Below the pieces are notes generated by a model. That model did not search any database. It saw only the letters and a program-made list of their open reading frames with translations, and was not told the origin of the DNA. Source: Methylococcaceae bacterium TMED69 (GTDB lineage: Bacteria; Pseudomonadota; Gammaproteobacteria; Ga0077536). Taken from it: DNA of 52,602 nucleotides. The position numbers were made by a program, and so were the translations under genes. Numbering within the stretch: the stretch's first letter is position 1; the number at the start of each line of letters is the position of its first letter. This document shows, piece by piece, positions 421-33,533 of the stretch. The stretch lies in contig NHDW01000006.1 of the NCBI GenBank assembly GCA_002170535.1, positions 199,983-252,584 of the forward strand, given 5' to 3'.

Positions 421-942
421 TTAATAATTGGTGGAGATTTCTGGATAATCGTTGGGGTCGATATATCTCACGTTATAAACTTCGACCGCATGCGGGAAAA
501 TTAAAACTTCGAGCTCTTCTATTCCATCGCCGGAATCAAAATCAAAATATTCTACTGCATCGTAGCCGTTAGCTATGGCATAGTCGACTGCAGCCGGTTG
601 GGATCCTAGTTCGTCCCAAAGATTATTAAAAGCTTTCCCGGGGAGAATGTTTAAATCCGAAACCTGCATAACAACTAATGCACCCCCATATTCTGAACTT
701 TTTCCATTTTTGGCCCAAGCCCATATAGCGTGTTCAACAGCAATTTCTTCTTCAACAGTAAATGATATTCCTTTGTTCGACGCGTCACCGGACTTTTTGC
801 CGACCAACAAAGTATCGAAACCTCTTTCTTCTATCTGTTCTCCCGATTCTTCTGAAGTCCCATGATAAACATATTGATAACTCTGAGAATAATTTTCCTT
901 TAGGGTTCTTCTTATATATTGCCGCAAGTGTTTCATTTCCAT
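421..942 (-). CDS. Tagged ADP-ribosyltransferase-like protein
   Basis: N-terminal tag MKHLRQYIRRTLKEN; YVYHGTSEESGEQIEERGF ... NKGISFT ... ELEVLIF pattern typical of ART folds. Confidence 0.5.
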   Translation of the reverse strand: MEMKHLRQYIRRTLKENYSQSYQYVYHGTSEESGEQIEERGFDTLLVGKKSGDASNKGISFTVEEEIAVEHAIWAWAKNGKSSEYGGALVVMQVSDLNILPGKAFNNLWDELGSQPAAVDYAIANGYDAVEYFDFDSGDGIEELEVLIFPHAVEVYNVRYIDPNDYPEISTNY

Positions 943-1295
943 GGACCCGCATGTTTAGTATTAACACAGTTGATTATAGTTTCAGCTGCTGTATACTCTT
1001 TAAATATTTGGGGTTGGTATAAATCATAGTAAACATTTCTTGGTATACCGCCCGGTTTAGTGAACTTTGTCTGATCATCAAACACCAGGTTTTCCTTTTC
1101 GACCCATGCGTGATTGTAAGAATCACCGCTAAATTTGTCCGTTACTTTCCCATGAACAACTTTAAATTTCTTAAGATTATTCCTGTCGGACACTTGCGAT
1201 TTTTTTGCCATGTTAACAGCGAATGGGTAACACTGTCCGGCTGGAATAGTTTCTTCAGTCAGTAGCTGTCTTATGTATTTCCGCAAGTATTTCAT
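933..1295 (-). CDS. Tagged small protein, possible Cys/His/Asp (papain/transglutaminase/deamidase-like) hydrolase
   Basis: Tag MKYLRKYIRQLLTEE; C in GQCYPFAV, H in YNHAWVE, D in VFDDQT. Confidence 0.35.
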   Translation of the reverse strand: MKYLRKYIRQLLTEETIPAGQCYPFAVNMAKKSQVSDRNNLKKFKVVHGKVTDKFSGDSYNHAWVEKENLVFDDQTKFTKPGGIPRNVYYDLYQPQIFKEYTAAETIINCVNTKHAGPWK

Positions 1296-1999
1296 GACAT
1301 CTGACTCGCTTTATAAAGCAGATATTCTTTGCCAGTTTTTTCGTATATCTTATCCATATACATGACGAATTTATCGTATTCACTATCTGGCACTATCAAG
1401 CCTTGAATCTCCCAGTTGTCGATCAAGGCTTCGTTTCCTAATTGACCCTGCGGGTCCCAGTCTTCAGCTGACAAAACAATGTCTTGGGTGTATGCATAAC
1501 TGATACCTTTGTTCGCTCCGGATGAAGCCACTCTTTGTGGAGCCGCTGTTTTATAAGAAGGGGTATAACCGGTCTGCAGAGAATTCATGTCGTTACTCAA
1601 AAGCGTAACATGTCCTGTGATGATCAACCCATACTGTCCGAAGAATTGTGAATTGCCCGGGATTTCGCCAGGCTTGTATGCCATGGCACTTAACTCATCT
1701 CGAGGGTTTACATCTACTTTTATGACATCTGGCGCCAGCATTCCGAGCGCTCTTCTTCCGTATTCAGTCCAGTGCACATATTTTAAGCTGTCTAAATACT
1801 GTCGATCTGCGTGCGCAGCAAAAGCAATTTTCATCTTGCGGCCGGCGGCTGCCATTCTTCTATAAGCTTCGTCGTCTTCGCCTCTTTCAATAAAGTTGTG
1901 ATCGAAGTCTTGACCATATAGATCTGCAAGGAAAGCATCGCGTCTGTTATACGCTACTTCTTTTAATACAGATCGTATGTATTGTCGCAAGTGTTTCAC
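1292..1999 (-). CDS. Tagged protein of unknown function (GTG start proposed)
   Basis: Trimming the ORF to GTG at 1999 gives VKHLRQYIRSVLKEV, aligning with neighbouring tags; start overlaps the upstream stop. Confidence 0.6.
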   Translation of the reverse strand: MKHLRQYIRSVLKEVAYNRRDAFLADLYGQDFDHNFIERGEDDEAYRRMAAAGRKMKIAFAAHADRQYLDSLKYVHWTEYGRRALGMLAPDVIKVDVNPRDELSAMAYKPGEIPGNSQFFGQYGLIITGHVTLLSNDMNSLQTGYTPSYKTAAPQRVASSGANKGISYAYTQDIVLSAEDWDPQGQLGNEALIDNWEIQGLIVPDSEYDKFVMYMDKIYEKTGKEYLLYKASQMS

Positions 2000-2613
2000 T
2001 AGCTTTCCCCCCTGTTGTCCCATTTTCCAGCTGCTTTGAGAGCGTTTATTGTTGTAGGAGGTTTTGTATATCTTTTGCTCAAAGGGGAGTCTACCCAGTC
2101 TGATCCGCGGTCTCTCTCTCCGCCATACATCTGGTGGCGGCCGCCTGCCATTTCTTGGTCACAGTTATCTTCACCTTCTGGTGTAAGGTAATTAAATGGA
2201 TCATCTAACTGGTGAGCAGTAACATCTGTTCTGTTGTTAAGATAATAAGCCCAGACCCTTCTTGCATCAGAAGAAACTTCAGACCGATCGGCAATCAAGC
2301 CATTAGCGTTTTGTGTGGCCCATTCAATCGCAATATCATAAAGAAAGGGACCCCATCCTTGGTCGGCAGTAACCATAGCTATTGCCCAAGCTCCGCCGCA
2401 GTTTCCGATTTTGTCTTCATTGTCTATTTCTTCGATACTGATTGTGCCGTAAGGCTTGTGGAACCGGGTTTTGTCGAAACTGGAAGATAGGTTAATATCA
2501 GTTCTGTATCCAAATTCGTCAATCTCAACTTTTACACCTTCTGGTATGTCTTCAATTGTTTTAATCCCTTCCGTCAGAAGTATCTGTCTTATGTATTGTC
2601 GCAAGTGTTTCAT
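1999..2613 (-). CDS. Tagged protein, paralogue of the next gene
   Basis: Tag MKHLRQYIRQILLTEG; shares GNCxGAxAI, GPxxYDxAIE, VWxYYxNNRxDV, LTPExEDNCxQ with 2610-3182. Confidence 0.65.
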   Translation of the reverse strand: MKHLRQYIRQILLTEGIKTIEDIPEGVKVEIDEFGYRTDINLSSSFDKTRFHKPYGTISIEEIDNEDKIGNCGGAWAIAMVTADQGWGPFLYDIAIEWATQNANGLIADRSEVSSDARRVWAYYLNNRTDVTAHQLDDPFNYLTPEGEDNCDQEMAGGRHQMYGGERDRGSDWVDSPLSKRYTKPPTTINALKAAGKWDNRGES

Positions 2614-3182
2614 GTTAGCATTCCCCTCTTACGGAGCTCATCCATTACTGGAGTGTCTGATTTTTTATATACCTTGCTTAGGACAGATTGGTTAAAGTTT
2701 TCTTGACCTTTGTCTCTTAGAGAAGACCTTTGAACGCAGTTATCTTCTTCTTCTGGTGTCAATTGATTATCAAAGTTGTCTGTTTGTACAGTTTCGACGT
2801 CTGGCCTGTTATTATAATAATAGCTCCAAACAGCTTTTGCAGAATCACTAACAGTAAATCTATCTGGCATAAGCCCCAAACCGCCAGTCAATTCAATAGC
2901 AACATCATAAGCTAATGGACCCATACCTGTTTTAGCACTCGAGGCCGTGACTATTGCAGCAGCGCCAGCACAATTTCCGGAGCCAGCAGATGCGGAAGTT
3001 TCATAAGCGACCATGGCAACCCAATTGCGAGGTGAAATTTCAGTAGGTTCCCAAACTGTAACTCTGTCTGGCAAGATCTCTACATAGCCTTTAGCTTTTT
3101 CGAGAGCATCAATCATTGACATGATTTTCGGATTGACTGATTCTGTCAATAGCTCCCTTATGTATTCACGGAGTAATTTCAT
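2610..3182 (-). CDS. Tagged protein, paralogue of 1999-2613
   Basis: Tag MKLLREYIRELLTES; tandem paralogue motifs. Confidence 0.65.
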   Translation of the reverse strand: MKLLREYIRELLTESVNPKIMSMIDALEKAKGYVEILPDRVTVWEPTEISPRNWVAMVAYETSASAGSGNCAGAAAIVTASSAKTGMGPLAYDVAIELTGGLGLMPDRFTVSDSAKAVWSYYYNNRPDVETVQTDNFDNQLTPEEEDNCVQRSSLRDKGQENFNQSVLSKVYKKSDTPVMDELRKRGMLT

Positions 3183-3637
3183 CGTGGTTTCCTCTCCATA
3201 TACCCAAACCTACCAGGAGCAAATCCTAAGGATGAATAAAATCTTGTTAACACTTCATCGTCTGCGGTCGATATATCTCCAAAAGCATCAGGTGTCCCAC
3301 TCAGGATAACGCCGTGCTTGTCGGCAATATCTAAAACTTGTTCCATAGCTATTCGTGCATACCCTTTTTGATAACACGATTCATCCTCACGGCCGGCGGA
3401 GTCTAATGTAGCAATAAAATCCCATCTTGCTATCGGGGTGTCATCATCGCCGAAAGGTGGAACCAACGCAGGGCCAATGACAAATCTAACTTCACACCCA
3501 TCTGGAAAGGAGACCGCCAAAGCACCACCTCGGCGGGATTCGAATCTAGATTCGAGTTCATTGGTGAATAATCTACCAGCATCGGCAGCCTCTGCTAAAA
3601 GAATTTGTCTTATGTATTCGCGGAGTAAATTAGTCAT
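3179..3637 (-). CDS. Tagged GNAT-like acetyltransferase
   Basis: Tag MTNLLREYIRQILLAEA; CYQKGYARIAMEQVLDIADKHGV...FYSSLGFAPG resembles GNAT motifs. Confidence 0.55.
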   Translation of the reverse strand: MTNLLREYIRQILLAEAADAGRLFTNELESRFESRRGGALAVSFPDGCEVRFVIGPALVPPFGDDDTPIARWDFIATLDSAGREDESCYQKGYARIAMEQVLDIADKHGVILSGTPDAFGDISTADDEVLTRFYSSLGFAPGRFGYMERKPR

Positions 3638-4197
3638 TTTCTATGGAATCCTAAAATATCTAACAGTTCCTTTTTGTGTTCATCAGATATCCACCTGGGA
3701 ATCCTAACCGCGGAGAGTGCATCTGAATATTTTTTAATTTGGCGCGGAGATGGGTTGTGCGAAAGATTGTGTATTAGATCTGATATTTTGACAATTCCCG
3801 CTAAAGGATTTGACAATACACTTTGAAGATATTCGACGTACGGAACAGATTTATCATGAGTTAAAAGTTCCAATGCTCGATTTATCTGTATTAAAATTTT
3901 CCTATCGTGTATTGAATTTTGTATCATTTGAAATGCCTCATCTTGCGTGAGATTTCCAACCTTTTCTGCGTCTTCTAGCGTGTCATGCAGCAGAGCCAAC
4001 AGTTGTGCGCCCTGATTCGATGGATAATACCTTTTGGTTATATTGTAAACCTCTAGTGGGTGACTAATATATGGTGTTCCATCTCTTCTTTTCTGACCAT
4101 GGTGTACCAGATAAGCAGTCTGCTTTACATCCTCCACATCCTCTCGAGAAATGTACTCTAATAAAATATGTCTTATAAACGTTCTTATTTTTTCCAT
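3634..4197 (-). CDS. Tagged HD-domain hydrolase, SpoT/MESH1-like
   Basis: AYLVHHGQKRRDGTPYISHPLEVYNI...LLALLHDTLEDAEKVG matches the (p)ppGpp hydrolase HD signature; tag MEKIRTFIRHILLE. Confidence 0.65.
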   Translation of the reverse strand: MEKIRTFIRHILLEYISREDVEDVKQTAYLVHHGQKRRDGTPYISHPLEVYNITKRYYPSNQGAQLLALLHDTLEDAEKVGNLTQDEAFQMIQNSIHDRKILIQINRALELLTHDKSVPYVEYLQSVLSNPLAGIVKISDLIHNLSHNPSPRQIKKYSDALSAVRIPRWISDEHKKELLDILGFHRK

Positions 4198-4209
4198 TTC
4201 TGGCCACCA

Positions 4210-4947
4210 TTATCTTAGAAAATTTTCCATCGCCGGTCTTATCAATTCTATTCTCTCCTGATAATCCTCGTATGTTCCGGAATTATCTACGAATAAAAAA
4301 TTAGAACCAAACAATTCTTCATATAGTTCTTTGTTTCTGTTAACAGATTCCCAGCTTCTTGAAACTGCTTTGTCGTGCAACCTTCTTTTTCCCTTTTCTC
4401 CTCGTTGGAAGTTTCTCTCGAGAGAAATATCTTTAGGAACCGATACATAAACCATCGCGGTGTCATAACCCATTTGCAAATATACAGAGTTTAATTTTGA
4501 TATTTCTCTATAACTTCCTCCGGTTCCGTCGATAATAAAATCCTTTCCTTCTGCACTTAAATGTGCTGCTTTTTGTTTTGCTTGTTTTCTTGCAGTATTA
4601 AATAATTTTGCATTAGTAGACATTGTTGGCCTGAGCTCTGCTCTCTTTTTCTCCAGTTCTGAGACATCTAACCCTTGTTCTTTTCCTGCTTCTAATGCGG
4701 AGACTATATCAAAATATTCTTGGGTAAATGAAGCAATGTCTAAACTTATTCCTGCTTCTTTAAGAAAAGGTTCATACCAATCATCGGGATTTATTATAGA
4801 AAATTGCTCTAATAAACCTAGCTGGTTTAACACGGTAGATTTTCCGGATCCCGGGGCTCCTGCCATAAAGATCATTTTTTTACCCTGGAAAGAGTCTTTT
4901 AACTGCTCCAGTAAAATTATTCTAATATATTCTCTAAGATAGCTCAC
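4210..4947 (-). CDS. Tagged P-loop kinase / zeta-toxin-like protein (GTG start proposed)
   Basis: MIFMAGAPGSGKSTVLNQL Walker A; INPDDWYE; tag VSYLREYIRIILLEQ. Confidence 0.6.
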   Translation of the reverse strand: MSYLREYIRIILLEQLKDSFQGKKMIFMAGAPGSGKSTVLNQLGLLEQFSIINPDDWYEPFLKEAGISLDIASFTQEYFDIVSALEAGKEQGLDVSELEKKRAELRPTMSTNAKLFNTARKQAKQKAAHLSAEGKDFIIDGTGGSYREISKLNSVYLQMGYDTAMVYVSVPKDISLERNFQRGEKGKRRLHDKAVSRSWESVNRNKELYEELFGSNFLFVDNSGTYEDYQERIELIRPAMENFLR

Positions 4948-4949
4948 TA

Positions 4950-5645
4950 TTATCCACCAAAAACCATTTTTACATGTGGAACACCACCTAAAGTTCTTTC
5001 GTACCATCCATCATATTGGCCGATAAACTGAGCACGTGTCTTGGATTTTTGAGCTTCTATCGAAAGATCTTTATAAATTGGGTTTGACGGGTCTTTGAAA
5101 AATGGATGTTCACCATGCCAAATAACATTCGGCTTAGCAATGTAAGCTAGCGCGATGTCTTTATCGGTAATCGCTGGAACTTTTGCTTTCATTGCCATTG
5201 ATGCAGATCTTCCGCTCATTTCTGCCCATGCGTGTCCACTCTTTAATCTCCTAATAGTGTCTGCCTTAGAGTATTCGCTAGCAATAGCAGAACCATCAGT
5301 TGCTGAAAGAGAAAGCTTCATACTCCCAGACTTGGGCTTCATGCCTCTAACAACATCTGGCTCGGGATCCGGGTCAATGTCCCAGACATAAAATGGATCG
5401 TAATCGTTTTGAGATGGATTCATAAGGTCGTCTGGATGCCTGATATCAACATTGCCTCCTAAGTAAGCATATGACTGATCGATCAAGTTAAAGACTTCGT
5501 CTCTTAGTTCATCGTTTTCCGGATTCATTAGATCGTCATAGATCTCTAGTTCTTTGTTTTTTGAGTAACCCGGGAGCTGAGCCATTCTTTTCTCAATTAA
5601 AATCTTTCTAATTAAGTTTCTTAAATTATTTTCAGTGATAATCAT
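4950..5645 (-). CDS. Tagged protein of unknown function
   Basis: Tag MIITENNLRNLIRKILIEKR; long ORF overlapping its neighbour. Confidence 0.6.
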   Translation of the reverse strand: MIITENNLRNLIRKILIEKRMAQLPGYSKNKELEIYDDLMNPENDELRDEVFNLIDQSYAYLGGNVDIRHPDDLMNPSQNDYDPFYVWDIDPDPEPDVVRGMKPKSGSMKLSLSATDGSAIASEYSKADTIRRLKSGHAWAEMSGRSASMAMKAKVPAITDKDIALAYIAKPNVIWHGEHPFFKDPSNPIYKDLSIEAQKSKTRAQFIGQYDGWYERTLGGVPHVKMVFGG

Positions 5646-19919: not shown

Positions 19920-20336
19920 TTATACCTTTCTTTGGCTGTTTTTTTCAATTATAATTAAGCTATTCAAATCATACGATTTTTGATCACCTTGAACCATCAC
20001 TTTGCCAGAAGGAAGCTTTCCAGGAGTATGTTTTATAGCTATCAAAATCCCTATTTCTTTTACTGGTTCTGACCTGTAGTTGTGGGTATACGACATCACC
20101 AAGTCTCCGATCTCTGGCGGCTCTCTATAAATTTCTGGCGACGTCGTTAACGGATCCAATCTAATGCACGACCTTTTTGAAACCCTGATATGGGAATTCC
20201 AAAATCCTGTCTCCGGCTGAACAATTAGGTCATTCAGGGCAACCTCTATAACTGTTCCGATACCAAATTCATATATAGTGCCTGCTTTGTCTCTTGTTGA
20301 TCCAACAATACAGATTACATCGTTTTTTTTAAACAT
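19920..20336 (-). CDS. Protein with two SH3/KOW-like segments
   Basis: FKKNDVICIVGS...GIGTVIEV and PPEIGDLVMSY...EIGILIAIK. Confidence 0.45.
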   Translation of the reverse strand: MFKKNDVICIVGSTRDKAGTIYEFGIGTVIEVALNDLIVQPETGFWNSHIRVSKRSCIRLDPLTTSPEIYREPPEIGDLVMSYTHNYRSEPVKEIGILIAIKHTPGKLPSGKVMVQGDQKSYDLNSLIIIEKNSQRKV

Positions 20337-20366: not shown

Positions 20367-20386
20367 AGGGTCGGAAAACCGACCCT
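20367..20386. terminator. Strong terminator
   Basis: AGGGTCGG-AAAA-CCGACCCT with T/A runs on both sides. Confidence 0.85.
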
Positions 20387-21060
20387 AAAAAACGGAAAAA
20401 AAAGCTTCAGCATGTCTCGCTTTTCTTCTCGTGACCACCAATCTCACTTGTTTAGAGACTGTCCCCATTCTTGGGTTAGGAGTACACACACCGGAAAGTA
20501 AATCCGTTCACGAGCTTTCTCCCTGTTCTTATCGTTTTAAGGATACGGAACAGCACGCTTTACTATCGCCATAACATTCTGTGCGCCATTGAGTAAGCTG
20601 TACACTTCTCCTCTAAGTTGCACGTCACCTTTTCTATCTTTGGGAGATAGTCTGGATGACCCCTTTCGGGACGACGGTCCTGTTTCCATTTCCATCAGAG
20701 AGACTTCTGTCACCGACAGTTAGATTCTAAAGGTTTTTACCCCTTTTTCCCAAAACTTGTTTTAGTCTTAGTTTTGCCCTTGTCCCGTTTCCGCGATGAA
20801 TCTACAAATCCGCGGATTTCCTTGGCAGTATTTCTCTAGTGGAATAGAGACTCACGCCTTAGATCACTGAGTGATTTCGAACGTTCCACCGTCCTTAACT
20901 CACTCCCTCTCTTAGTAGGGCGGCATATCGTAAGAACGATACTTTCCCCATCGAGGTTTTCTCTATCATTTCACCCGAAGGCTCGATGCTCAGGAACCAG
21001 TAACTTTACCTGAGTTTTTTGACCCGAGAACATGGGTCAAATCAAATTTTCAAAGAACAT
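20367..21060 (-). ncRNA. Candidate large structured noncoding RNA
   Basis: No ORF in the track; many hairpins (20661-20670, 20707-20719, 20926-20941, 20949-20988, 20989-21014, 21018-21041); terminator at the 3' end; tRNA-Thr upstream. Confidence 0.65.
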
Positions 21061-21123
21061 TTTTGTATCTGAATAATAATATTAATTTTGAATTACTTGT
21101 ATAATTTTTTTTAATATTATTTA

Positions 21124-21199
21124 TGGAGCCATTGAGAGGACTCGAACCTCCGACCGGCTGATTACAAATCAGCTGCTCTACCAACTGAGCTACAATGGC
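21124..21199 (-). tRNA. tRNA-Thr (TGT)
   Basis: GCCATTG/CAATGGC acceptor; GATTTGTAATC anticodon arm; CCA encoded. Confidence 0.9.
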
Positions 21200-21202
21200 A
21201 AA

Positions 21203-21643
21203 TTAATCCACCTTGATTACCTCAACCGAAAAGTTCAGGTTTTTTCCTGCCAACCTGTGGTTAAAATCCATAACAACCTCATTTTCTCTGTCTTCCTTAA
21301 TTTGCGCCCAGAAATCCTGTTGTGTAGCTCCGTCCTTTCCCCTTACAAATCCGCCGATTGTAAACTCAAATCCCTCTGGAAATTGGGACTTAGGAACTAC
21401 TCTAATTGCTTCATTGTTATATGGCCCATATGCTTTTTCTGGAGGAATGTTAATGTTTGAAGTTTCACCAACCTCTAACCCCACAACTCCTTCGTCAAAG
21501 CCCTTAATAACAGACCCTGTTCCAACAACAAAGGAAAAAGGTTCTCCTCTGTCTCTAGAATTATCAAATTCTGTTCCATCATCTAGTGTTCCAACGTAGT
21601 GGACAAAAACGGTGTTACCATTTTCTACTTTAGTATTGCTCAT
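21203..21643 (-). CDS. FKBP-type peptidyl-prolyl isomerase (SlyD-like)
   Basis: VFVHYVGTLDDGTEFDNSRDRGEPFSFVVGTGSVIKGFDEGVVGLEVGE. Confidence 0.85.
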   Translation of the reverse strand: MSNTKVENGNTVFVHYVGTLDDGTEFDNSRDRGEPFSFVVGTGSVIKGFDEGVVGLEVGETSNINIPPEKAYGPYNNEAIRVVPKSQFPEGFEFTIGGFVRGKDGATQQDFWAQIKEDRENEVVMDFNHRLAGKNLNFSVEVIKVD

Positions 21644-21701
21644 TTTTTCTCCTTTGGCAATTTTTTTTAAAATTCTCAAAAATATTATATCTCAAATATG
21701 G

Positions 21702-26966: not shown

Positions 26967-27227
26967 CTAATATCTTTTGTTTTTATATTGATTAGGCTGT
27001 ATAACATCTTCTCTTTTAGGAAATTTGTCGCCTAATCTTGGACTAAGATCCTTGCTTTTTGGCTCTATCTCTTTTTTGATCTCTTCCGTTATCTTTCTGT
27101 AAGTAAACATTCCACCTTTCACTACTGCAAAAGCAGCAAGATATATCATAAAGAACAGAAGACATGTTAGAAATATAACTAACACGACCGGTATAATTGG
27201 TTCCCACATATTAATATCTGTATTCAT
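26967..27227 (-). CDS. Small membrane protein
   Basis: [34 protein letters not shown]. Confidence 0.55.
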
Positions 27228-28515
27228 CTGACTTATACGGTCCGAAAATAGGAACATTAATGTATTCTGCTTGGTGAGGCTTTAATGTTTCTAATTTTGC
27301 GTTTATATGATTTAAGTGAAGAGCTGCCACTTCTTCATCCAATGTTTTTGGCAAGACGTAAACCTTGTTTTCGTAATTTTTTGAATTGTGAAACATTTCA
27401 ATTTGGGCCAAAACTTGATTTGTAAAAGAGCAGGACATTACAAAGCTTGGATGACCTGTTGCGCATCCTAAGTTCACTAGTCTTCCTTCTGCTAATAAAA
27501 TTATGTTTTTTCCGGCTACCTCATAGCAGTCGACTTGAGGCTTAATATTTGTTTTTTCGCAATGCGCGTCCAGCCAGGCAACATCAATCTCGTTATCAAA
27601 GTGTCCGATGTTACAAACAATAGTGTTGTCATTCATTTCGCAAAAATGTTCATCTCTGACCACGTCTCGATTTCCTGTAGCTGTTACCACAATGTTTGCT
27701 TCTTTAATTGCGTCTGTCATTCTCATAACCTGAAAGCCATCCATGGCAGCCTGTAGGGCGCAGATCGGATCAATCTCTGTTACAATAACTCTACAACCGG
27801 CTGAAGCAAGCGATGCTGCAGAACCTTTTCCAACATCTCCATATCCTGCAACGACAGCAACCTTACCAGCCATCATGATATCTGTTGCTCTACGAATGGC
27901 ATCTACACAAGATTCCTTGCAGCCATACTTGTTGTCAAATTTTGATTTTGTGACAGAATCATTAACGTTTATTGCGGGAAAAGGAAGAATTTTATCACTC
28001 TCAAATTCTCTTAACCTTAATACTCCAGTCGTAGTCTCTTCTGTTACGCCAATAATATCTCCGCAAATTTCTGGATATTTCTCGATAAGGTGCTTTGTTA
28101 AATCCCCACCATCATCTAATATCATGTTTGGACTAGTCCAATTACCTTCGTGGTTATCAAACTTAATAACTTCGTCTAGGCACCGTTCATAATCATCCTC
28201 TGACATTCCTTTCCAAGCAAAAACAGGAATGTGCTTATTTGCTGTATATGCCGCAGCATGATCTTGGGTTGAAAATATATTGCATGTCATCCAGCGGACA
28301 TCTGCTCCAAGTTCAACAAGGGTGTCAATTAAAACTGCGGTTTGAATTGTCATATGTAAGCAGCCGGCGATCTTTGCACCTTTTAAAGGTTTATCAGCAC
28401 CATATTTCTCTTTTAGAGCTATTAAACCAGGCATTTCAGATTCTGCTAACAAAACTTCTTTTGCTCCCCATTCTGATAGTTTTATATCTTTAATTTTGTA
28501 GTCTTTAAAATCCAT
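27211..28515 (-). CDS. ahcY: S-adenosylhomocysteine hydrolase
   Basis: [34 protein letters not shown], full length 434 aa. Confidence 0.95.
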
Positions 28516-28518
28516 TTT

Positions 28519-31500
28519 TTACTCCTGTTCTAAATGGCTTCTGTATTTTTTAAAAAGTTCATTTCTTTTCTGTAGATCATCTAAATATTCTTTTGGAAGC
28601 TTGGTGATGCCAAAATATTTAGATTCAGAGCTTGCAAAATACCATCCACATATTGCTGCTTTTGGTATCATTGTTAAACCATCTGTTAGTTTAACTTCGT
28701 TTTTTATTCCAAGCCAATCTACAATTTTAATTTTTTGAGTGTGATCCGGGCAAGCTGGGTATCCAGGAGCAGGACGGATTCCTTTGTAAGATTCTGATAT
28801 TAAATCTTTGTTATCAAAGTGTTCCTCGCTTTCAATATATTTCCAGTGTTTTATTCGGACTTGTTGGTGCAACCACTCTGCTGTTGCCTCGGCAAACCTG
28901 TCACCAAGAGATTGAACCATAATGTTTCTATAATCATCTTGCTCGTTTTTGAATTCTTTCGCTTTTTCATCTATTCCGTTTACCCAAATTGCAAATGTTC
29001 CAAGCCAATCTTCTTCGTGTAAAAAATCACTCAAGCTCATATTTTTTGTAGACGATTTTTTTTGCGGCTGGCGTAAAAAATTGAATGTTTTTTCTTTGCC
29101 CTCCCTGTAAACGGTTACGTCCTCGTTGTTCTTCTTACATCTATCAATTGAAAATGAATACGAAATTGAAACTGTTTTCGACAGTTCGTCAATCATTCTA
29201 TTCGCGTCTTCTAATAAGTTTATTCCAACTTCCTCAGAAAGCTGCTTTGGCTTTAGTCCCCAAGTCATTGCAAACGGAACCCAGTCAATATAATCTCTTA
29301 TTTCTTCGATGCTGGCCACGTCACGGTTTATTCCAGTGGATGCTGGTTTGACAGCTTCAGACTCTAGGCGATACCGATTACCGCGAGAAATCTCTAAAGG
29401 AAAGTATTTTCTATTATTAGGCTTTCTTGAATTTCTAATCTTTTCATACTTCTTTATGATTTCTTTAAAAGCTTCGTCGTTTGTGAGAACATTATTTACT
29501 TCAGATACTGCAACGCTAGCGTTTCTAATATACACAGTGTTCTTGTATTTCGGAGCAATCCTTGTAGCAGTATGGACCTTTGATGTCGTTGCTCCGCCTA
29601 TCAATAAAGGAACTGGATAGTTTTCTTTTTCGAGCGCTGCTGCAACTTTTACCATTTCGTCTAGACTAGGAGTAATAAGCCCACTTAACCCGATCGCATC
29701 AACTTTATGACTTATTGCCTCTTCGATTATTTTTTCTGTTGGTACCATAACTCCTAAATCTATAACTTCATATCCGTTGCACTGAAGAACAACACCAACA
29801 ATATTCTTTCCAATATCGTGGACATCCCCTTTTACAGTAGCCATTAATATTTTCCCTCGAGACGCTGACCCTCCATCTTTTTCCATATATGGCTCTAACC
29901 AAGCTACGGCTTTTTTCATAACTCGGGCTGATTTAACTACCTGAGGCAGAAACATTTTTCCAGACCCAAAAAGATCTCCAACTATGTTCATGCCGTCCAT
30001 TAGCGGACCTTCAACTATCTCTATGGCATTAGGATTTTTATTGTAACACTCCTCAACATCTTCTAAAATATATCTGTCAATTCCATTTACCAGAGCGTGT
30101 TCTATTCTTTTCGCGGGTGATTCTGCTCTCCACTCTTCGTTTGTTTTCCTTTCTCCAGATTTTTTACCACTGGTTTCTTGTGCTAATTCTAGCAAGAGTG
30201 AGCTTGCGTCTGGGTTTTTGTTTAGGATTGCATCCTCTACTATTTTTCTGTGTCCCTTGTCAATGCTTTCGTATATTGTTAATTGCCCCGCATTGACTAT
30301 TGCCATATCAAGACCAGCTTTCACGGCATGATACAAGAAAACAGAGTGCATTATTTCCCTTACATAAGGATTTCCTCTAAAAGAGAAAGATAGGTTGGAC
30401 AAACCTCCTGACACTTTGGCTCCTGGAAGTTGTTTCTTTATCCACTCTGTTGCGTTAATAAAGTCTACAGCATAATTGTCGTGTTCTGATATTCCTGTTG
30501 CAATTGCAAATATATTTGGATCAAATATAATGTCGCTTGGAGCAATTCCGTTTTCTACCAATAGCCAATACGCTCTAGAGCATATCTCTTTTTTTCTTTC
30601 GAGGCTGTCCGCTTGCCCACTTTCATCAAAAGCCATTACTACAAAAGCGTGGCCGCATGAGACGATTTCTTTTGCCTGTTCTAGAAAACTTTGTTCTCCC
30701 TCTTTTAAAGAAATTGAATTTACAATTCCCCTCCCCTGGAGCCATCTCATGCATGTTCTTAAAATATCCCATTTAGAAGAATCTACCATAATTGGAACAC
30801 GAGATATCTCTGGTTCAGATGCTATTAATTTTATAAAGTTTAGCATCTCCTCCTTTGAATCAAGAAGTCCGTCATCCATGTTGATGTCTATTATTTGCGC
30901 GCCATTGGCTATCTGTCTTTTCGCTATCTGCAAGGCATCGTCATACCTTTTTTCCTTGATACATTTTCTAAACCTTGATGAGCCAGTAACATTTGTTCTT
31001 TCGCCAATGTTGATGAAATTTTTTCCATCGCAGGAATATTCCTCTAAACCAGATAGCTTTAAGGTTTTTTCAAAAGGAACGCGAGTTGATTTTGGCTGCA
31101 TCTTTTTTACTGTCTTTGCAATTTTCGAAATGTGTTCAGGAGTAGTTCCACAGCAGCCTCCAATAATGTTTAAACCACTGTTTTTAGCCATTTTCCTAAT
31201 CATAGCCGCCATTTCATCGGGAGACTGGTCGTATTCTCCTAGCTCATTGGGCAAACCAGCGTTTGGATGTGCTGAAATGGCACATGAGCTTACTTCTGAT
31301 AACCTGGAGACATATGGTGCCATCTGTTCTGTACCTAGAGCGCAATTTAGACCAACCGACACTGGGTTTGCATGTTTGACGGATTGCCAAAATGCCTCTA
31401 CAGTCTGACCAGAAAGCGTCCTTCCAGATGCATCAACTATGGTTCCTGAAATCATAAGAGGAATTGTTTTTGAAATACTTCTAACTGCTTCAATTGCGGC

Positions 31501-32013
31501 TTTTGCGTTCAGAGTATCAAATATTGTTTCAATCATTATTAGGTCACAACCACCCTTTATTAGGTTTTCAGCTGCGGCTCTATAGCTTTTAAAAAGACCA
31601 TTATATGTAATATTTCTAAAAGCGGGATCCAGCACATCTGGAGACATTGACAGGGTCCTTGATGTCGGCCCTAGTACTCCTGCAACCAACGCATCGTATT
31701 TGTTAGCAATAGTTCTTGCCAACTTTGCGGCTTTGTAATTAAGCAAATCTATTGCTTCGTTACTTAGGTCATAATCTTCTGCAGAAACATAATTCGCGTT
31801 AAAAGTATTTGTTTCAATGATATCTGCACCAGCTTTTAAATAGTCCTCGTGAATAGACTTTATTACCTCTGGGCAAGTCAAACAAAGTATATCATTGAAT
31901 CCCTCACAGTTTTTTTCCTCGTACGAGAAAAAGGACGGATCAACTTTTCTCTTTTGTATCTCCGTTCCCATTGCTCCATCGAGTATGTAAATCTTTTTAT
32001 TAAAATCTACCAT
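28519..32013 (-). CDS. metH: Cobalamin-dependent methionine synthase
   Basis: [55 protein letters not shown]; start trimmed to MVDFNKK. Confidence 0.95.
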
Positions 32014-32459
32014 TCTTCTTTTTGACCAACCCAATCTTGAAACTTGTCTTCTCCACCCCTTATTCCCCAGTCTGAGTCGACAGTAAGCTTTGATGATATT
32101 CCACCTCTCGGGTTGCATACTATTACCAGCCTGAGTCGAGTCGGTTCGTATGCGCTCATCATGTCATCGTAAATCACGTTAATGATTCTTTCGTATGAAT
32201 AAATCTGTGACCTAAAGGCAAAGAAGTATTCTTTGAGAGATTTAAGCTCAATAACTTTGTCACCTGGATAAAACGTGATATACAACTGTGCAAAATCTGG
32301 CTGGGCCCTAACCCCTTCAAAAGTAAGTTCCGGAACCTTCATTTTTATTTCATAGGCTTCCCTAGAAGGATTTGGAATTGATTTAAGAATGTGCCTATTT
32401 TTTTGCCAATTTCTTTTCCGTCTATTTCTGCCAATTGGAGGCGTTGTTTCTTCGCTCAT
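32007..32459 (-). CDS. QueF-like (T-fold) protein
   Basis: [32 protein letters not shown]...NPRGGIS; the usual CPVTG Cys is replaced. Confidence 0.7.
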
Positions 32460-32460
32460 T

Positions 32461-33444
32461 TTAACCCCATGTTTGGTTAGTGCCCATGTGACCCCAAGCG
32501 GCGGTCTGTAAGTATTTAGGCTTTTTTAAGTCTAGATGATTAATGATTCCCTGAGGGCTTAGATCATAATCTGTTACGGGAAACTCTTCCCCGTTAACTA
32601 TCATTGTTGCTTCTACCGGTTGGTCATGTCCAATGGCGTACGCAAGATAAACATATACTTGGTTTCCTTCAGGTCTACGATTTAGAGTCTGCAATTTATC
32701 TACGGCAATTCGTCTAGCCATGTAAGCTGCTGATCGATCAACCTTTGTAGGATCCTTACCACTAAATGCTCCTCCCCCTACTGGAATTGCTGGTCCGTAA
32801 TTGTCGATTACGATCTTTCTGCCAGTTAATCCGGCGTCGGCGTCGAATCCTCCAAGATTCCAATCGCCTGCGGGGTTAGCAAAAATCTTTGTTTCCGATG
32901 TATCAAAACTAACGGTGCGGAGCCAACCCTTTATGTATCCTTCCAAGTCTTTTGTTTTTGCCATTTGGAAACTAGCAACCACTGAATCGATTTTATTTCC
33001 GCATAGTGTTACCTGTGTTTTTCCGTCGAAGGGATAAACCTTATAAAGCTGCTTACAAAGCTGGCGCGCTAAATAAAGTTCGTTTGGCACCATCTCTGGA
33101 TTGTCATCGCATGCATATCCGACCATGATTCCTTGATCTCCTGCGCCGCCTGTATCAACTCCTTGAGAGATAAAGTTACTCTGTTTTACAACGTTAACAT
33201 TAACCTTGACAGGTTTTCCATAGGTCTCTCTTACTATTTGCTCTATTGGCAAATCAGCATTAGTAGTTATTTCCCCAGTTACGTTTATTTCTCCGTGACC
33301 TCCCATGGTTTCTACTGCAACCCTAGAGTCGGGATCAAAACCCAAACAGTGGTCAAGTATCGCATCCGAAATAGTGTCACAAATTTTATCCGGATGTTTG
33401 GGAGTTACACATTCTGCAGTTTTGTATTTTCTACTTATCATCAT
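32461..33444 (-). CDS. metK: S-adenosylmethionine synthetase
   Basis: TAECVTPKHPDKICDTISDAILD; GAGDQGIMVGYA; GGGAFSGKDPTKVDRSAAY. Confidence 0.95.
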   Translation of the reverse strand: MMISRKYKTAECVTPKHPDKICDTISDAILDHCLGFDPDSRVAVETMGGHGEINVTGEITTNADLPIEQIVRETYGKPVKVNVNVVKQSNFISQGVDTGGAGDQGIMVGYACDDNPEMVPNELYLARQLCKQLYKVYPFDGKTQVTLCGNKIDSVVASFQMAKTKDLEGYIKGWLRTVSFDTSETKIFANPAGDWNLGGFDADAGLTGRKIVIDNYGPAIPVGGGAFSGKDPTKVDRSAAYMARRIAVDKLQTLNRRPEGNQVYVYLAYAIGHDQPVEATMIVNGEEFPVTDYDLSPQGIINHLDLKKPKYLQTAAWGHMGTNQTWG

Positions 33445-33533
33445 TAATAATTTCCCCATCCGCAGTCACAAGGGTCACATTCGCAAGCCTCGCACGGCTG
33501 GAATAGTTTTTTAATATAGTTTATAATTCTCAT
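33444..33533 (-). CDS. 29-aa Cys-rich microprotein
   Basis: Own translation MRIINYIKKLFQPCEACECDPCDCGWGNY; TAATG overlap with metK. Confidence 0.55.
   Translation of the reverse strand: MRIINYIKKLFQPCEACECDPCDCGWGNY

Follow-up and report, generated by a model that had tools for sequence, protein, structure and literature searches.

Comparative sequence evidence for a family of large structured phage RNAs distinct from GOLLD and ROOL

To our knowledge, few natural RNAs as large and complex as the one considered here exist outside ribosomes and introns, and no function has, so far as we are aware, been assigned to the phage RNAs GOLLD and ROOL. The first of these (RF02032) is a large, ornate phage RNA of more than 800 nt that is often found near tRNAs and is conserved in a 3' domain but variable in its 5' region; the second (RF03087) is an RNA of approximately 0.55-0.6 kb, carried by phages and prophages near tRNAs, that contains several pseudoknots. 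Both assemble into RNA-only nanocages (PMC12286853), and investigators have further reported that GOLLD pulls down ribosomes and that one GOLLD representative, env-38, lies downstream of tRNA-Met (PMC12286853). Studies of other phages led to the description of an ncRNA of approximately 800 nt that is the most abundant transcript of ICP1 (PMC7567579), and of large, abundant, ORF-free lncRNA transcripts in phage K (PMC9241854), both of which have been likened to GOLLD and ROOL (PMC7567579, PMC9241854).

The RNA examined here resembles those of ICP1 and phage K in being large, ORF-free and derived from a phage, and it meets the description of GOLLD as phage-encoded near tRNAs. It lies in a stretch of 52,602 nucleotides (referred to throughout, at its full length, as the window) that corresponds to positions 199983-252584 of a 305,838-base contig, C5. 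That contig encodes a terminase large subunit (identified by a Pfam match), together with portal, capsid and tail sheath genes (read from their translations), tRNAs, GroEL and tmRNA genes, and its terminase relatives reside on IMG/VR contigs of up to 289 kb. Because its two ends share a 25.7-kb overlap (60 mismatches), leaving a unit of 280,180 bases, C5 represents a complete or near-complete genome of a T4-like jumbo phage. The contig had been binned into a bacterial assembly (G000) in which no 16S gene could be detected, and its host assignment is doubtful for that reason.

Between a tRNA-Thr(UGU) gene (21124-21199, minus strand; ARAGORN and Rfam) and a gene encoding 138 amino acids (19920-20336, minus), approximately 790 bases contain no ORF longer than 58 amino acids on either strand, which is the longest ORF-free gap both of the contig (306 kb) and in comparison with every related phage stretch that was scanned. 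The RNA within that gap has a G+C content of 0.447, against 0.382 overall. A sequence-only reading of this DNA had called attention to the missing ORFs, to the adjoining tRNA-Thr and to a strong minus-strand terminator at the 3' end of the RNA, and each of those features is real: the terminator is an intrinsic one, formed by a stem-loop at 20386-20367 (AGGGTCGG-TTTT-CCGACCCT-TTTTTATTTT; minus) whose T-run extends to approximately 20357. The RNA itself, as delimited by alignment and covariation, occupies 20395-21062 on the minus strand, the strand of all of its elements described below; its outermost conserved helices (P1, starting at 21038, and P23, ending at 20401) bound a conserved body at 21038-20401, and a 5' element extends this to 21058.

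Relatives of this RNA were not readily found with single sequences. A blastn search of phages and plasmids returned nothing, an exact 20-mer from the RNA had no match, neighbouring genes and proteins used as queries against viral contigs uncovered no RNA-bearing relatives, and a covariance model built from the one sequence (R1) found only itself. None of the 43 viral and 29 cellular loci reached through relatives of TerL and of a nearby amidohydrolase contains the RNA; the large ORF-poor gaps in those relatives proved for the most part to be tmRNA genes or runs of short, overlapping ORFs. One related phage contig harbors a separate ORF-poor stretch of 797 nt with several hairpins (L145:14636-15432), for which neither an Rfam match nor similarity to the present family was found.

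A 17-base pattern taken from the RNA (GGGAGAAAGCTCGTGAA) identified 16 viral contigs, seven of which contain the RNA; these first seven homologues are 71-78% identical to it, with nhmmer E values of 1e-30 to 1e-119. Two relaxed degenerate patterns drawn from the growing alignment added more, for a total of 27 IMG/VR phage contigs of 15-317 kb bearing homologues of 57-76% identity, all of them uncultivated. Since the patterns were taken from conserved core motifs, more distant members will have been missed. None of 50,697 records in a phage collection contained the RNA, and a model of the family (R2), when applied to 369 genomes of the class to which the window is assigned, recovered only the window's own copy; four further hits of 20-21 bits were taken as chance. 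The final alignment (A6) comprises 26 sequences, corresponding to the copy in the window and 25 homologues.

Folding of the single sequence provides only moderate evidence for structure, because the minimum free energy of the minus strand (-217, versus -191 +/- 6.9 for 150 dinucleotide shuffles) corresponds to a z score of just -3.8, and that of the plus strand to -3.0. The case for a conserved fold is carried by the alignment. An initial RNAalifold consensus of 20 sequences displayed two-sided changes in 94 of 139 pairs, and the final structure, built by hand from covariation across all pairs of columns and from a stem search, comprises 181 pairs in 37 helices, eight of which are pseudoknots or kissing loops. 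Over the 26 sequences (60% mean identity; 19 effective sequences at 85%), 96.3% of cells are canonical and 125 of the 181 pairs change on both sides; the number of cells changed on both sides is 717, versus 192 in shuffled alignments and 69-121 when partners are slid by one to three columns. A tree-aware count was added because such shuffles ignore relatedness. On a maximum-likelihood tree, both partners changed with pairing retained on 232 branches, against a mean of 9.6 and a maximum of 21 in 200 replicates in which the partner was swapped for a column with equally many changes; for the pseudoknot pairs alone, the count was 25, against a mean of 0.7 and a maximum of 4. The structure was further examined with held-out sequence, consisting of missing parts of three homologues that the alignment underlying the structure did not contain. 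Canonical pairing was found at 64 of 66 positions in L226, 117 of 119 in L227 and 49 of 52 in L228 (that is, 94-98%), versus 35-56% in slid controls.

The resulting structure begins with the P1 hairpin (21021-21038; TTTGACCC/GGGTCAAA), the loop of which pairs with GAGAA to form PK1 (21030-21026 with 20963-20959; compensatory change in two columns), and continues with the P2 hairpin (20989-21014; CTCAGG/CCTGAG), in which all six pairs change on both sides. An arm composed of P4, P5 and P6 (20906-20956) contains the 5' strand of PK8 (20925-20922 with 20778-20775, placed by the alignment structure). It is followed by the P7-P8 hairpin (20869-20905; paired in 99% of cells for P7 and 97% for P8), from which the loop GTGGAA contacts the loop TTCCAC of the P9a/b/c hairpin (20819-20863; P9c is 100% paired, with compensatory change in six of six pairs). 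This kissing interaction between P8 and P9c, PK2 (20889-20884 with 20844-20839), has undergone four independent double changes, and reads GTGACA/TGTCAC in L205. The loop TAGATTC of the P10 hairpin (20790-20816) forms the seven base pairs of PK3 with the strand preceding P12 (20804-20798 with 20727-20721; 100% paired, five independent double changes), and TTTGGGA pairs with the P15b loop TCCCAAA in PK4 (20754-20748 with 20645-20639; 98.8% paired, four independent double changes).

The P12 domain (20562-20720) consists of P12a and P12b closing P13, the GAAA hairpin P14, P15 and P16, and is tied to the following region by PK5 (TCTCT with GGAGA; 20703-20699 with 20522-20518), which is 99% paired, with one compensatory column and two independent double changes. 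The most conserved core (20523-20558) comprises P17 and P18, both of which covary, and PK7 (CTGTTC with GAACAG; 20553-20548 with 20528-20523). Seven of the eight long-range or kissing interactions are supported by covariation; the exception is PK7, the most conserved of the helices, which remains unproven by that measure because it is invariant in all sequences (and 100% pairable). Toward the 3' end, the P19 arm (P19-P22; 20428-20514) displays 98% pairing in P19 with four compensatory pairs, and PK6 joins the flank of P20 to the 3' hairpin (20489-20484 with 20415-20410; six independent double changes), so that PK6 and the P23 3' hairpin together span 20401-20489. Three unpaired stretches, UAGAGAAAAC, GAUUCAUCG and AAGAACAGGGAGRAA, are invariant.

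Two other pairings were considered and set aside: a long-range helix in the minimum-free-energy structure (ACGGGACA/TGTTCCGT), the strands of which do not covary and in which TGTTC instead pairs with GAACA in PK7, and an RNAalifold pairing of a P1 strand with columns 321-323, which is an artefact of nested folding. The sequence-only reading had listed six hairpins, four of which are conserved among homologues (P1 and P2, as well as TATCGT/ACGATA and CCC-GAAA-GGG, which correspond to P6 and P14). The strands of the remaining two, CATCGAG/CTCGATG and CTGTC-GGT-GACAG, have other partners in the conserved structure (in P3/P4 and in P12a and P12b, respectively); these two hairpins represent alternative pairings.

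Searches with models of described RNAs did not place this structure in any of them. No family in Rfam 15 reached threshold over the RNA in the window or in any homologue, and no sub-threshold GOLLD or ROOL match was found for the copy in the window; scans at gathering thresholds and at E<=10, covering the region and its homologues, likewise gave no match to OLE, raiA, HEARO, RNase P, tmRNA or group I/II introns. The GOLLD model (gathering threshold 150 bits) found nothing in the phage's own genome at E<=10, and only two chance-level hits, of 7.5 and 4.8 bits, across 47 related records; this negative result rests on Rfam's model alone, without a positive control. The ROOL model (threshold 99.1 bits) had no match over the RNA in C5 and the same 47 records, and scored 130.4 bits on the ROOL gene of pMP118 as a positive control. 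Model R2 had no convincing match in the genome of ICP1 or phage K, and a 14.6-bit hit in ICP1 was rejected as a family member, as it falls inside an endonuclease gene.

That the RNA might be a far-diverged GOLLD or ROOL, drifted beyond the reach of the Rfam models, is suggested by its size class, its phage genomes and its tRNA neighbours (PMC12286853). Such an origin is nevertheless very improbable: no match to either model was found in this phage, the 47 records gave only chance-level hits at E up to 10, and no Rfam family match recurred over the RNA in eight homologous loci at the same limit, although a true ROOL yields 130 bits. The family, at approximately 670 nt, aligns and covaries over its full length, 5' helices included, in contrast to the variable 5' half of GOLLD, and differs from ROOL in its conserved motifs. 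It also possesses a boxA-like 5' element (described below) that sets it apart from GOLLD and for which no counterpart was found upstream of the pMP118 ROOL gene. The likeness to both in size, phage genome and tRNA neighbour holds as analogy and does not indicate membership.

Because of the covariation, the held-out pairing and the absence of a GOLLD or ROOL score, the RNA is assigned to a new family of large, ornate phage RNAs; on this comparative evidence, it is a real, conserved structured RNA and not a member of either known family. The sequence-only reading had offered a GOLLD- or ROOL-type RNA or a new class, and had named comparison with those two models and covariation among homologues as checks, and a match to an intron or RNase P as a refutation. 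The new class is supported by compensatory change across 26 sequences, membership in GOLLD or ROOL found no model match over the RNA in this phage or the 47 related records, and neither an intron nor RNase P was matched in the Rfam 15 scans of the region and its homologues.

Immediately 5' of P1 lies a sequence, GTTCTTTGAAAA (21047-21058), that resembles boxA, an element whose role has been described previously (PMC4807359). The motif TCTTTNA(A/C)A or a near variant precedes P1 in all 25 copies with a complete 5' end, in the forms GTTCTTTGAAAA, GTTCTTTAACA, GATCTTTAACA or close variants thereof; the element is variant in L220 and L226, and in L206 the sequence GCTCTTTCATA is found further upstream. 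In the E. coli rrnB leader used for comparison (TGCTCTTTAACA), L236:217-231 reads TGCTCTTTAACAATT, the boxA of that leader. The likeness lies in a TCTTT(A/G)A(A/C)A core placed immediately ahead of an RNA that is long, structured and untranslated, while the difference lies in the phage origin of the present RNA, for which no boxB or boxC has been demonstrated. In the absence of binding data, the conserved element is read, from its sequence, as a boxA antitermination element, a reading that would suit this RNA because it is long and untranslated. Short stem-loops directly 5' of the element in L203, L182, L184, L204 and L205 (for example TGAAAG-GAAA-CTTTCA) recall, by resemblance alone, the boxB-boxA layout of nut and rrn. 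Between the tRNA and the RNA, a possible sigma70-like promoter (TATACA-N16-TATTAT; 21076-21103, minus) is a consensus match only, and does not exceed matches in shuffles of the same AT-rich stretch.

The presence of a boxA-like element in every 5'-complete copy, the tRNA linkage, the occurrence of tmRNA in the same phages and the ribosome pull-down reported for GOLLD (PMC12286853) raise the possibility that the RNA enters the route of rRNA biogenesis (via S10, NusB and SuhB) and binds or stores ribosomal subunits or tRNAs. This remains possible but unlikely, as Rfam recognises no rRNA-like helices and antitermination alone can account for boxA. A new ribozyme, such as a processing or modifying enzyme active in infection, is similarly unlikely: the density of pseudoknots and the invariant unpaired stretches do resemble those of large catalytic RNAs, but neither a splice-site nor a cleavage context is present, the flanking genes vary on both sides, and no catalytic RNA family is matched.

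The surroundings of the RNA differ from phage to phage. A same-strand tRNA lies within approximately 90 nt upstream in seven of 25 loci, and represents four isotypes: Thr in the window, Asn in L192, Ser in L208, L211, L212 and L225, and Lys in L213, where the RNA starts at the 3' end of the tRNA. Upstream of tRNA-Thr in the window is an FKBP-type peptidyl-prolyl isomerase gene (21203-21679, minus; Pfam PF00254, 1.3e-25). Such a gene is also near the RNA in L208, L212, L225, L192, L226 and L233, for a total of seven loci with differing local gene order, and this recurrence deserves attention because FKBP relatives of the window protein were found in only 24 phage records; whether it reflects function or shared synteny is open. 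Downstream, the 3' hairpin is followed by a terminator or T-run in most copies (equivalent hairpins being found in L182, L184, L190, L192, L206 and L216), and genes beyond it vary while RNA and terminator stay.

The RNA occurs in jumbo or large T4-like phages. Seven carriers whose terminase could be detected belong to the broad clade of the window phage, with TerL identities of 47-68%. The three closest relatives of the window phage (TerL 81-87%) lack the RNA, so it is dispensable for this type of phage, and its presence in more distant carriers but not in the nearest relatives marks it as an accessory gene that has repeatedly been acquired or lost. In the nearest relative, G057, the tRNA-Thr and the gene encoding 138 amino acids lie 28 bp apart with no RNA between them, an insertion-like arrangement that might point to a mobile intron-like element or else a cis-acting leader. 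Either is scarcely credible, given that the RNA has its own terminator, that downstream genes differ between phages, that tRNA and flanking gene are intact, and that neither an ORF nor an intron match was found.

The favored interpretation, considered probable, is that the window encodes a member of a phage RNA family not previously described, whose RNAs are large (approximately 640-690 nt), trans-acting and multi-pseudoknotted. The RNA would fairly probably be made during infection as an independent, abundant transcript, its boxA element recruiting host Nus factors (NusB-S10); the putative NusB-S10 target would be GUUCUUUGAAAA, for which there are no binding data, and bound Nus factors would spare polymerase from Rho-dependent termination while it transcribes the long untranslated RNA, in the manner of rRNA synthesis. 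The RNA is inferred, with high confidence, to be a rigid tertiary scaffold acting in trans. Self-assembly in the manner of GOLLD and ROOL, into a homo-oligomeric RNA particle that might shelter or organise something in infection, is a tentative inference held with less than even confidence, and the analogy in size and neighbourhood lends it weak support because GOLLD and ROOL are different folds. A bolder proposal, for which the case falls a little short of even, is that this RNA represents one more independent class of giant phage RNAs, with a fold that resembles none described so far and a new function (an RNA cage, a ribosome store or catalysis), and that phages invented large RNA particles or ribozymes repeatedly, relying on host rRNA-style boxA antitermination to produce them. 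A further, unrelated family provides a direct test of whether large phage RNAs share a job (such as assembly or ribosome handling) or evolved separately; this one, which combines a covariation-proven secondary structure (pseudoknots included) with a boxA-like signal and a defined transcription unit, is an immediate target for cryo-EM.

Several additional features of this phage were noted. Window positions 27211-33459 encode a methionine/SAM cycle set (S-adenosylhomocysteinase, a cobalamin-type methionine synthase of 1199 amino acids and S-adenosylmethionine synthetase, as read from translations), only part of which is shared by relatives. A tmRNA gene is present at C5:151716-152106 (minus; L009:11716-12106), with the tag ANNNYHYESARLAA; many relatives of this phage likewise encode a tmRNA, which is also found in L108, L109, L110, L112, L132, L134-L136, L141, L146, L213, L226, L232 and L234, and such phage genes often adjoin an amidohydrolase gene or tRNAs. 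Finally, approximately 16 adjoining and otherwise dissimilar ORFs (window 421-5645; C5:194148-205627) share an N-terminal motif similar to MKHLRQYIRQILLxE, which resembles a shared tag for targeting or packaging diverse proteins.
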